Positions 5,566 to 64,000 of a stretch of DNA of 64,000 nucleotides are shown here, piece after piece. This DNA comes from an uncultured Gammaproteobacteria bacterium. GTDB lineage: Bacteria; Pseudomonadota; Gammaproteobacteria; Arenicellales; JAANXG01. Within the stretch, counting starts at the first letter, position 1; every line of letters begins with the position of its first letter. The stretch spans positions 150,503 to 214,502 of the forward strand of contig CAMYKK010000003.1 of the NCBI GenBank assembly GCA_947258975.1. The letters run 5' to 3'. The notes below the pieces were generated by a model that worked only from the letters and a program-made list of their open reading frames with translations, was not told the origin of the DNA and did no database searches. Both the position numbers and the translations under genes were made by a program.

Positions 5566-6206
5566 AGAGCCCTACACTGCACCAAGCTTTCTGGATGACC
5601 GCACGGGTAGCGCGCGTTGACACCGCGCTGTAGCGACATCTATAGCCGTAGCTATGGATTGAGCGAATCACGAGTCGGGGTGTTCGAGATCGTGCGGACG
5701 CCGGGGTAGTCCGGCCTCTATTCGCGGTCTGCACCGGAAAGACGCACGGCGTGTCGTATAAGATCGGAAACATTCGATTCTCCAGGTTGCTTGGACGGAT
5801 TAGGGGTGGACCATCTTGGGCGATTTGTGGACTGGGATCTTCCGCGCACTCAGGATTCGTATTTATACCGACATTGATCGTGCGTGCAAGCTCTCAAAAA
5901 CAACGCCGTCCTCGGCCCTGATGTTGACGGCAAGTTTTACGCCAAGAATCCCGGAAGCTAGCGAAAAGACTTGTCCTGCGCGTAGTCGCAGGATCGGTTG
6001 GTGAGGACGCCGTGCCCGTGTGTTGTGACGTCACGACCCATAATCCGCGGCGAAGCTTATCAGCTCATGGGATGGAACTGAAATGACCGCTGCAATGTTT
6101 GCCGCTGCGGGTACAATGCTGTGTGCGGTTACTCTGTGCCCTCGTCCGGCCTTTGGTATCGGCAAGGTCTCAATGGCTCGCGGGGCGACTTGGTGCGATG
6201 CACAGG
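5547..6206. other. Non-coding accessory stretch with one repeat copy
   Basis: No convincing reading frame is present here; the short ORFs lack family features. The stretch holds copy A of the dispersed hairpin repeat (5941-6001) and a GC-rich imperfect palindrome near 5700. It may contain the promoter for the patatin-sulfotransferase pair, but no clear -35/-10 pair was recognised. Confidence 0.5.
5941..6001 (+). repeat. Dispersed hairpin repeat, copy A
   Basis: It contains GAAGCTAGCGAAAAGACTTG followed by the perfect stem-loop CCTGCG-CGTAGT-CGCAGG and then a GGTTGG-like end. Copies B (19990-20054, inverted), C (25240-25307) and D (42791-42846) share this order. The upstream flank CGCCAAGAATCCCGG matches the flank of copy C. 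It is a REP-like or small non-autonomous element; no family name is assigned. Confidence 0.7.
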
Positions 6207-6494
6207 TCAGTTCTCTCCCGCACGCTCGAATCGGCACCCGTACCGCGTGCTGCGTACCCCGGTTTGCTCGATGCGCACGATGACCCCACTAAATCGCAAG
6301 ATCGCACCGTTATGTTCCTCATGGATCTCGGCGTTAATTACGGTTCCCAGTTCGAGCTCGTGATCGCTCTCGAGCAGGATCCCGGTGCGACTCATGTCGA
6401 CGACGACGCCTTGTGCAATCTGGTTGTCGTTGTGCATGCGGAAGCGTATCGGGGCGCCGATGGTTAGCCGTGGCGCGTCGCGTTTCTCTGTCAT
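6207..6494 (-). CDS. PilZ domain protein
   Basis: The predicted protein is 95 aa from ATG at 6494, which places MTEKRDAPRL at the N-terminus; the longer start in the track adds non-conserved residues. The PilZ c-di-GMP signature is seen as KRDAPR (RxxxR-like, with Lys-Arg at the first position) and DMSRTG (DxSxxG). The rest fits a single PilZ barrel ending in GCRFE. It probably binds cyclic di-GMP and acts as a stand-alone effector or adaptor in surface or motility behaviour. No partner gene is adjacent. Confidence 0.85.
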   Translation of the reverse strand: MTEKRDAPRLTIGAPIRFRMHNDNQIAQGVVVDMSRTGILLESDHELELGTVINAEIHEEHNGAILRFSGVIVRIEQTGVRSTRYGCRFERAGEN

Positions 6495-60386: not shown

Positions 60387-60749
60387 ATGAGCAACTCAAA
60401 ATCCAGCGCCGATGATGCTTCCTCCGTCAACAGCACAGCGGAAATGCTGCTCGCCAGTGAGGCGGACATACATCATGCGTCGCGATCGCTCAAGGCGATG
60501 GCGCACCCACTAAGACTCAAGATCCTGTGTATCCTGGGTGGTGCCAAGGAAACCAGTGTGCAGGATCTCGTCGATATGGTCGGTACGTCGCAAAGCAACA
60601 TCTCCCAGCACCTCTCGATCCTGCGAGATAAGGGAATTCTGGAATCCCGCAAAGACGCCAATAAAGTGTATTACCGCATCGGAGATCAACGGATTTTACG
60701 GCTCATGGAATCCATGCGCTTGGCGTTCTGCACGTCTCCAGATCTTTGA
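60387..60749 (+). CDS. ArsR-family regulator with SqrR/BigR-like cysteine pair
   Basis: The 120-aa protein is a winged-helix ArsR member: MAHPLRLKILCILG, LVDMVGTSQSNISQHLSILRDKG and VYYRIGD. Cys48 lies in RLKILC and Cys115 in RLAFC, the same positions as the dithiol of persulfide sensors SqrR and BigR. The canonical metal box ELCVCD is absent. A rhodanese gene lies 141 bp downstream. Persulfide sensing is inference. Confidence 0.85.
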   Translation: MSNSKSSADDASSVNSTAEMLLASEADIHHASRSLKAMAHPLRLKILCILGGAKETSVQDLVDMVGTSQSNISQHLSILRDKGILESRKDANKVYYRIGDQRILRLMESMRLAFCTSPDL

Positions 60750-60890: not shown

Positions 60891-61307
60891 ATGACTGCCC
60901 AATTCGTCATTGACAACTGGTATTTGTTTGCGATGGCCGCCGCAATCATTGTAATGCTGTTGCTGGAGCCTATTCGCCAGCGCGCCTCCGGTATTCGTTC
61001 CGTGGGTGCTTTGGAGTTGCCTGCCTTGCTTCGCGACGACGCGGTAATTCTAGACGTCAGCGAGCCCCATGAGTTCAAAAAATCCCGTATTCCAAATTCC
61101 GTCAACGTTCCTCTTAAGAAATTATCCGGAGATCTGGGTAAGCTGGGAAAGAGCAAAAACAAGACCATAGTGATAATTTGCCGCGCGGGTAACCGTTCGG
61201 CGGCTGCCGCTCGATTGCTTACGAAACAAGGTTTTGAGAGCGTGTACACCCTGGCAGGTGGACTGCTTGCCTGGGAGAAAGAAAAGTTTCCGATGGAAAG
61301 AGGTTAG
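60891..61307 (+). CDS. Membrane-anchored rhodanese-like protein
   Basis: The 138-aa protein has one N-terminal membrane helix (WYLFAMAAAIIVMLLLE) and a rhodanese domain with active loop CRAGNRS and HEFKKSRIPNSVNVP. It resembles YibN and would move sulfane sulfur at the membrane. It heads the rhodanese-secB-gpsA run. Confidence 0.9.
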   Translation: MTAQFVIDNWYLFAMAAAIIVMLLLEPIRQRASGIRSVGALELPALLRDDAVILDVSEPHEFKKSRIPNSVNVPLKKLSGDLGKLGKSKNKTIVIICRAGNRSAAAARLLTKQGFESVYTLAGGLLAWEKEKFPMERG

Positions 61308-61331: not shown

Positions 61332-61877
61332 ATGGCAGAGCAAGAATACAGTGAGGCAAAATTTGGAATAAGAAAAATATACCTCAAGGACGTGTCCTTT
61401 GAATCACCCCAAGCACCGCAAATCTTTGTGCAACCCGACGTTACGCCCAAGATCGATGTCCAGATCCGCATCGGGCACACTGTGTTAAACAAAGAGGCCG
61501 GATTTTATGAGGTTGTATTGACGATGACGGTAACCGCGAAGTCCGGCGACCAGACTACTTTTTTGATAGAGGCGCAACAAGCCGGGGTATTCGAAATCAT
61601 GGGAATCAGCGAGCAAGAGCTTCCGTTGGCATTGGAGGTGGCGTGTCCCAACACACTCCTGCCTTTTGCCCGCGAAGCGGTGTCTGATTTCGTGGCAAAG
61701 GGAGGATTTCCGCAACTCCTGGTTAATCCAGTGAACTTCGAGGCCCTGTATGTGCAAAAACAGCGACAGGTGGAGGAACAGGCGTCTACCCCTCCAGATC
61801 AGGCAGAGGGAGCGGAAGCCGACGCGGTCAAACCCAAGGATCCCCATTCGTCGCAAAACAAAACCACGCGTGCTTGA
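61332..61877 (+). CDS. secB: Export chaperone SecB
   Basis: The 181-aa protein has the SecB core (IRKIYLKDVSFESPQAP, VTAKSGDQTTFLIEAQQAGVF, CPNTLLPFAREAVSDFVAKGGFP) and an Ala/Pro-rich tail slightly longer than usual. It holds preproteins unfolded and hands them to SecA. Confidence 0.96.
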   Translation: MAEQEYSEAKFGIRKIYLKDVSFESPQAPQIFVQPDVTPKIDVQIRIGHTVLNKEAGFYEVVLTMTVTAKSGDQTTFLIEAQQAGVFEIMGISEQELPLALEVACPNTLLPFAREAVSDFVAKGGFPQLLVNPVNFEALYVQKQRQVEEQASTPPDQAEGAEADAVKPKDPHSSQNKTTRA

Positions 61878-62939: not shown

Positions 62940-63251
62940 AGTTAATGGGGGCAATAACAAACCTAATGGGAGAATGCTTCATCACCCCCCGGCAATCGTT
63001 ATCTTCTGCTCCGCGACAACAAAATTGATATAAGTCAATATTCGATTACGGACTCGTATGCTATGTAAACATGAGCACCTGCACCGACAAGGAACACGCA
63101 GGCGCGGTTACGGAGAACTGAAACATATCAAACGCTGCAAAACAGAGTATTTCGCTAACCTCGATCCAAAGCCGGCGAGAATCTCTGTGTCCGTTTTCAA
63201 GAAACCTGGAACGGTCGAGTTGGTCGCGGCTGTTTTTACAAGGGGGAGATA
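62940..63251. other. Regulatory spacer upstream of the DsrC-like gene
   Basis: 312 bp with no supported gene; the 64-codon ORF at 63058 runs over the DsrC-like ribosome site and has no family features. An FNR-like palindrome lies at 63025-63038, with TATGCT/TATGTA about 30 bp downstream. Confidence 0.5.
63025..63038 (+). promoter_or_regulatory. FNR/ANR-like binding site
   Basis: TTGATATAAGTCAA matches TTGAT-N4-ATCAA at nine of ten conserved positions. The centre at 63031.5 puts a class II start near 63073, with TATGTA at the expected -10 place. Redox control of the DsrC-like gene is inference. Confidence 0.45.
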
Positions 63252-63605
63252 ATGTCTATTGAAGTGAACGGTAAGGTGATCGAGATCGATGAAGAGGGTT
63301 ATCTCGTTGATCGGGAAGATTGGTCCGAGGACGTGTCTGAAGCCATCGCTAACCGTGACGGTATAGATTTAAAAGATGAACACATGGGGCTGGTCGATTA
63401 TTTTCGCGATTATTACGAAGAACATCAGGTTCATCCCACCATGCATGTGCTCGTACAACGGCTTGGTGGCAAGATCGGAGAGAAGTTCCATGAGCACAAG
63501 GAGTATGAGAAGTTTCTCTATATGTTGTTCCCCACCGACCCTGTTTCCGAGTTATGCAAATTGGCCGGATTACCCAAGCCGTTACCTTCCGAGCACGATG
63601 GCTAA
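63252..63605 (+). CDS. DsrC/TusE-family protein lacking the C-terminal cysteine
   Basis: The 117-aa protein has the DsrC fold features EVNGKVIEIDEEGYLVD, DWSEDV, YFRDYYEEHQVHP and FPTDPVSELCKLAGLPKP. In DsrC the chain ends GLPKP-TGC-V with the swinging CysA; here it ends LPSEHDG. Only the second Cys (Cys102, CysB position) remains. GGGGGAG precedes the ATG. It lies 158 bp before dsrA, so a sulfur-relay or regulatory role in Dsr metabolism is likely, but not as a normal DsrC persulfide carrier. Confidence 0.85.
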   Translation: MSIEVNGKVIEIDEEGYLVDREDWSEDVSEAIANRDGIDLKDEHMGLVDYFRDYYEEHQVHPTMHVLVQRLGGKIGEKFHEHKEYEKFLYMLFPTDPVSELCKLAGLPKPLPSEHDG

Positions 63606-63620
63606 CGCTTTCCAACCATG

Positions 63621-63637
63621 CGGCGCTTAAGGCGCCG
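63621..63637. terminator. Hairpin between the DsrC-like gene and dsrA
   Basis: CGGCGC-TTAAG-GCGCCG is a perfect six-pair stem 15 bp after the DsrC-like stop. No T-run follows, so it may be a processing or attenuation site. Confidence 0.4.
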
Positions 63638-63763
63638 GTCTGTTGGCGGCAAAAAGGTACGGCCTTGTTTTAATGACGTATGCTCATCCCCGGTTCCGCT
63701 CGTGCGATCGCCGGTGTTTGCGTTTAGGGCATAAATAACCTCAGCTTGAGTAGGAGGCTGTTG

Positions 63764-64000
63764 ATGGCTAAGAAAGAAGACGATAAAGGAACGAACCCGG
63801 GATTAAACACCCCGTTGCTGGATCAACTGGAGGGGGGGCCGTGGCCCAGTTTCGTCTCTGACCTCAAACAGTGGTCAGAAACCAAACCCCAGGTGGCGCA
63901 GCTGTTGAATCAACTCGAGGAATCCTACGAGAACCGATGGAACTACTGGACCGGCACCGTTCTGAACGTATCAGGTTATGGCGGCGGCGTCATTGCACGC
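63764..64000 (+). CDS. dsrA: Dissimilatory (reverse) sulfite reductase alpha subunit, cut by window edge
   Basis: This frame is not in the ORF track because it runs off the right edge. ATG 63764 has AGGAGG seven bases upstream. The 79 visible residues include TPLLDQLEGGPWPSFVSDLK, then LLNQLEESYENRWNYW and VSGYGGGVIAR, the DsrA N-terminus. The siroheme and Fe-S motifs are beyond the window. In gammaproteobacteria DsrAB runs in the oxidative direction on stored sulfur; direction cannot be read from this fragment. Confidence 0.88.
   Translation, partial: MAKKEDDKGTNPGLNTPLLDQLEGGPWPSFVSDLKQWSETKPQVAQLLNQLEESYENRWNYWTGTVLNVSGYGGGVIAR

Follow-up and report, generated by a model that had tools for sequence, protein, structure and literature searches.

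A gammaproteobacterial genome of 5.5 Mb in 214 contigs encodes, near the end of the 64,000 nucleotides analysed here (the window, G000:C3:150503-214502), a DsrC paralogue, DsrC2, that has kept the inner arm cysteine (CysB), has lost the terminal one (CysA) and lies directly before the first gene of a second dsrA2-dsrB2-dsrL2 set. On the basis of sequence comparison, we give a probability of roughly 45% to the reading in which this second reverse-type sulfite reductase, DsrA2B2 with its NADP(H)-type DsrL2, has in DsrC2 a partner of its own that does not carry sulfur. The preliminary description of this DNA had reported a CysB-only DsrC paralogue directly before dsrA, which is confirmed by alignment and by the seven genomes that share its end. 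It had not recognized that the adjacent dsrAB is itself a second, divergent rDsrAB with a DsrL-2.

Results

The dsrC2 gene and its product

The features of the region, all on the forward strand, are as follows.

63025..63038, +, FNR-type box TTGATATAAGTCAA, shared by 5 genomes upstream of dsrC2, where the intergenic sequence has otherwise diverged
63062..63067, +, possible -10 element TATGTA, in the conserved stretch GCTATGTA, spaced from the FNR-type box as in a class II promoter
63252..63605, +, dsrC2, DsrC-family protein of 117 aa with CysB kept and CysA lost (ORF, profile, alignment)
63555..63557, +, TGC codon of Cys102, at the CysB position by alignment, invariant in 9/9 DsrC2 sequences
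63582..63602, +, tail LPSEHDG, which replaces the CysA-bearing TGCV and is the same in 7 genomes
63606..63763, +, dsrC2-dsrA2 intergenic region, 158 bp, with no significant RNA structure (z -0.16)
63764..64000, +, start of dsrA2 (429 aa; ATG at 63764), whose sequence runs past the window end and continues in locus L006 as dsrA2-dsrB2-dsrL2

The dsrC2 ORF starts with ATG, and its product scores 107.3 bits against the TusE/DsrC/DsvC profile TIGR03342 (cut-off 53.5) and 108.8 against Pfam PF04358 in the genome profile search (cut-off 24.9), while falling below the TusE equivalog PRK11508 of NCBIfam (87.8 bits vs a cut-off of 191). DsrC2 is predicted to have the DsrC fold, since its AlphaFold2 model (pLDDT 84) finds as best PDB match 1yx3, the DsrC of A. 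vinosum (TM 0.80). Cys102 aligns with CysB of the solved A. vinosum and A. fulgidus proteins, and the arm that follows reads AGLPKP as in canonical DsrC. The C-terminus then reads KPLPSEHDG, vs KPTGCV in canonical DsrC, so that CysA is absent; the proposal that GC(V) had given way to PSEHDG was right about the loss of the terminal cysteine, although the exact exchange is TGCV for LPSEHDG. The protein is therefore like canonical DsrC (A. vinosum, PDB 1yx3; TIGR03342, PF04358) in fold, CysB, AGLPKP arm and linkage to dsrAB, but differs in the missing CysA, the new tail, a four-residue insertion and the loss of several near-invariant residues (W45, Y58, A61, K95 and Q96 in canonical numbering). 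R65, K69 and K73 (same numbering) are also mostly gone, and together these losses suggest that the binding surface may serve a different partner.

TusE, like DsrC2, is a DsrC-family protein with a single arm cysteine, but it keeps CysA whereas DsrC2 keeps CysB, the reversal that had been noticed in the preliminary description and that the alignment bears out. Moreover, TusE works in tRNA thiolation, whereas DsrC2 sits with dsrAB. As had also been anticipated, intramolecular CysA-CysB chemistry is impossible in DsrC2, since CysA is absent.

Conservation of the variant end

Orthologues of DsrC2 were found in six other genomes of the same family, at 77-93% identity, and all six share the CysA-less end; no orthologue with an intact terminal cysteine, which could have betrayed an error, was seen. 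The terminal 18 residues, ELCKLAGLPKPLPSEHDG, are identical in the seven genomes, which rules out a sequencing error or frameshift as the cause of the missing CysA. Across codons 100-117, 17 of 18 columns vary in the DNA and none in the protein, whereas outside these codons 36 of 99 residues vary (Fisher p = 0.0014 for arm vs remainder, the sequences not being independent). Pairwise dN/dS values are 0.02-0.18 where computable, showing strong purifying selection on the coding sequence and ruling out a decaying pseudogene.

A protein of this type also precedes dsrA2 in two more distant Gammaproteobacteria (loci L084 and L099), where it ends in LCKL(A/S)GLPKPLPDGQ and bears an additional CxxC just ahead of this variant end. 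The tail thus lacks cysteine in both of its versions, LPSEHDG and LPDGQ. All nine DsrC2 sequences form a single clade (100/98) in a DsrC tree that is short (112 columns) and cannot tell which canonical DsrC gave rise to the DsrC2 stem. At every locus found dsrC2 adjoins dsrA2, despite differing wider neighbourhoods, and no DsrC2 without a neighbouring dsrA2 was seen in the genomes searched. In one genome, G011, the two genes are adjacent but divergently transcribed.

Cysteine loss of a similar kind has been described in viral genes: the second C-terminal cysteine of dsrC_1 from SUP05 phages was reported missing, with the suggestion that the protein is non-functional or modified in function (PMC4164917), and one phage DsrC has only the first cysteine motif (PMC8190135). 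A phage origin of DsrC2 was considered and is not supported. An IMG/VR search with the DsrC2 alignment gave one partial match, the 24 viral DsrC loci fetched all end in GC(V/I), and phage records gave two distant matches, one of them annotated as TusE. In the open literature searched, we found no description of a bacterial CysB-only DsrC beside dsrAB.

The canonical Dsr system and other DsrC paralogues

Profile search identified five DsrC-family proteins in the window genome. One of them is the canonical DsrC, ending in CKYAGLPKPTGCV, of a complete dsrAB-EFH-C-M-K-L-J-O-P operon on contig C6. The preliminary description had suggested looking for a full DsrC downstream of dsrAB; the genome does encode one, though not there but on a different contig, within the canonical operon. 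A canonical DsrC (PTGCV) is likewise encoded elsewhere in 9/9 DsrC2 genomes.

A distant paralogue beside the canonical locus, P0008, has lost both cysteines, ends in KGGY, lacks CysB and GLPKP and forms a clade separate from DsrC2. The reverse-strand cluster upstream of canonical dsrA (L007:7084-10361, on C6) includes such a Cys-less DsrC-like protein (tail KGGY), a TauD-like protein of dsrQ type, a 234-aa protein of unknown function and a Cas6/Cmx6-family protein (TIGR02807, 127.7 bits vs 98.85). Of 60 relatives, all 34 that have a DsrA match carry the Cas6-like gene, as does just one of those lacking such a match. A second, distant CysB-only DsrC-like family (L009 ~5913-6275, i.e. G000:C22:73912-74274, and L138-L160), ending in GCRIAGL..P.GS.D..FGSVQ, was matched in 24 of 60 relatives, with CysB replaced by serine in two; in the window genome its gene is not adjacent to dsr genes.

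The neighbouring dsrA2-dsrB2-dsrL2 set

DsrA2 is about 50% identical to the DsrA of the canonical operon of the same genome. The set looks competent for catalysis, since DsrA2 and DsrB2 retain the sirohaem cysteine motifs (CxxxxxC, CxxxC), along with KxKxK and HER in DsrA and the DsrB cysteine pattern. DsrL2 carries the YRR motif (VYRRTREEMPA), which is absent from the DsrL of the canonical operon and which Loffler 2020 (PMC7596348) ties to NADP(H). Downstream of dsrL2 in L006 lie unrelated genes.

Scanning 84,980 genomes with DsrA2 recovered relatives in Gammaproteobacteria, Magnetococcales, Nitrospinota, Nitrospirota and Gaiellales. In the DsrA2 tree it groups with Gaiellales SURF_19, Nitrospinota UBA9963 and UBA7883 and the second copy of UR-1. 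The first three are assigned to oxidative-type rDsrAB with DsrL-2 in PMC7596348 and PMC10591310, and PMC6783814 gives Ca. Magnetaquicoccus UR-1 a second dsrABL copy and a single dsrC. Judged by its sequence, dsrA2B2L2 is thus a second, divergent set of the known oxidative branch of rDsrAB with NADP(H)-type DsrL-2, the same branch as the systems of these three papers, whose accessible text reports no CysA-less DsrC beside an rDsrAB/DsrL-2 set. The set is rare, being found in 6 of 109 genomes of the order and 2 of 369 sampled genomes of the class (both counts include the window genome).

Position of dsrC across dsrA2B2L2 loci

In two Nitrospinota loci (L093, L100) a canonical dsrC lies directly before dsrA2, inside a full dsr cluster; in others it follows dsrL2, and in Magnetococcales dsrA2B2L2 occurs without a nearby dsrC. 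Within Gammaproteobacteria, the CysA-less variant is specific to the dsrA2B2L2 set. The closest DsrA2B2L2 sister, a nested clade of four loci (L079, L080, L082, L083), has no DsrC2 in the available sequence, on contigs that are short and in some cases end near the expected place of dsrC2. In L083, dsrA2B2L2 is followed by canonical dsrC-dsrM-dsrK, an arrangement implying that this enzyme type can work with the canonical carrier, and DsrC2 is therefore most simply seen as an added or substituted partner. On the DsrA2 tree the distribution of DsrC2 takes two events, which may be a gain plus a loss (in the four loci above) or two gains. Gain followed by loss is favoured by the single clade that the DsrC2 proteins make up. 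Sites separating DsrC2-bearing from DsrC2-lacking lineages number 11 in DsrA2, 5 in DsrB2 and 7 in DsrL2. Many are conservative, and at many it is the DsrC2-lacking lineage that has changed; with so few, there is no clear sign that DsrA2B2L2 has co-adapted to DsrC2.

Several neighbourhoods deserve mention in their own right. In L084 and L099 dsrC2A2B2L2 adjoins a malate dehydrogenase gene, the order in L084 being aconitase, pntA, pntB, mdh, dsrC2A2B2L2, sucC; a transhydrogenase would suit a neighbouring NADP(H)-type DsrL, and the context of these two loci suggests a coupling to NADP(H) and the TCA cycle. Directly beside dsrC2 in G011 (L045:1175-8663) are a PhsA-like molybdopterin oxidoreductase of the thiosulfate/polysulfide reductase type with FeS and NrfD subunits, rhodanese-like and cytochrome proteins, and a YeeE/TsuA-like transporter. 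Upstream of dsrC2 in the window lie genes for an ArsR-type regulator (60387-60749), a rhodanese (60891-61307) and SecB (61332-61877). In Magnetococcales HA3dbin3 (G118, locus L121), which has dsrA2B2L2 and whose genome may be incomplete, the only DsrC-family protein found ends in QALKLAGLPMPCGCN; its CysB is replaced and its end is TusE-like.

The upstream region

The FNR-type pattern occurs 99 times in the genome over both strands, palindromic sites counting twice, vs 7 times for the reversed control. The genome also encodes a CRP/FNR-family protein with an FNR-like CX2CX5C N-terminal motif. In G011 a 9/10 match to the box lies between the divergent dsrC2 and dsrA2, no box was found upstream of dsrC2 in G006, and none was seen before canonical dsrA. 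A generic sigma-70 scan of the region upstream of dsrC2 gave no site. As a reasonable inference from sequence, the candidate FNR-type promoter suggests use of the dsrC2 set under low-oxygen conditions. An RNA attenuator between dsrC2 and dsrA2 was considered and rejected, the intergenic RNA having no excess stability.

Discussion

In A. vinosum DsrC only the penultimate Cys111 (CysA) accepts sulfur, and it is needed for DsrEFH binding, whereas Cys100, at the CysB position, is not persulfurated and not needed for sulfur binding (PMC3397948). By analogy DsrC2, having no CysA, should not be loaded by DsrEFH, and since the sulfur-holding end has been replaced by an invariant tail, it probably adjusts or docks to the enzyme instead of carrying sulfur. 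Its arm would still dock in the DsrAB channel, where a cysteine-free tail could not bring a persulfide to the sirohaem; DsrC2 might then modulate the enzyme, either by sitting in the channel or gating it or by making the DsrA2B2L2 complex more stable, with canonical DsrC still acting as sulfur carrier. A further thiol contact may come from CysB, such as a mixed disulfide to canonical DsrC or to a partner protein. This dedicated-partner reading draws on the invariance of the tail, the adjacency to dsrA2, the canonical DsrC in 9/9 genomes, the sister clade without DsrC2 whose L083 set is operonic with a canonical dsrC, the predicted fold and the role of Cys111 in A. vinosum. Counting against it are the near-invariant DsrC residues that DsrC2 has lost, the lack of a clear co-adaptation signal in DsrA2B2L2 and the divergent arrangement in G011, which does not suggest a strict subunit stoichiometry.

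One may also consider, as a somewhat unlikely alternative, that CysB alone has a chemistry of its own, Cys102 taking sulfur from the CysA persulfide of canonical DsrC or forming a mixed di- or trisulfide with it, so that the two-cysteine cycle is split over two proteins. That Cys102 is invariant in all nine DsrC2 sequences, that both DsrC types co-occur in all nine genomes, and that P0008 has lost both cysteines, so that retaining CysB is no default, all fit this explanation; it sits badly with the A. vinosum results (PMC3397948), in which Cys100 carries no persulfide and sulfur binding requires CysA only.

Less probable is that DsrC2 is a transcription regulator or sensor in the sense of RspA, and not a partner of the enzyme. 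The DsrC fold contains a helix-turn-helix, and RspA-type proteins, to which a regulatory role is ascribed, are DsrC-like without the carrier cysteine, which DsrC2 lacks too. A putative role of DsrC in transcription is noted in PMC7787665, citing Venceslau 2014, and the divergent orientation in G011 is common for regulators. Matches to LexA DNA-binding domains do rank after the DsrC ones in the structure search, but they are weak and not significant (E ~1), the arm is the most conserved part of DsrC2, and the FNR-type box already provides a regulatory input.

We consider it rather improbable that the CysA-less DsrC is a permanent gating subunit, with DsrA2B2L2 exchanging sulfur species and NADP(H) electrons without a DsrC trisulfide cycle; if true, this would be a DsrAB working outside the accepted DsrC-carrier mechanism. 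Least probable is that DsrC2 acts as a decoy or brake, rivalling loaded canonical DsrC for access to either DsrAB and, for example, stopping sulfur flow to rDsrAB at low oxygen: the arm kept up to GLPKP without its cargo cysteine, the putative FNR-type control and the two Dsr sets in one genome are compatible with it, but dsrC2 is positionally tied to dsrA2, which a partner fits better than a general brake. A modulating docking partner would be one form of the regulatory or decoy role that the preliminary description had put forward as conceivable.

Mutants have so far been the main basis for inferring what the two DsrC arm cysteines do in catalysis by DsrAB. DsrC2 offers a natural test: evolution has taken away exactly the carrier cysteine and left the other in place, a new tail has become fixed, and the gene has stayed beside a DsrAB set. 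Setting it against the canonical DsrC from its own genome would tell docking apart from sulfur delivery. DsrC2 also calls for caution, in that a dsrC next to dsrAB should be taken to encode a carrier only once its arm has been checked, and it draws attention to dsrA2B2L2-type sets as a rarely noticed second set of enzymes of sulfur metabolism.
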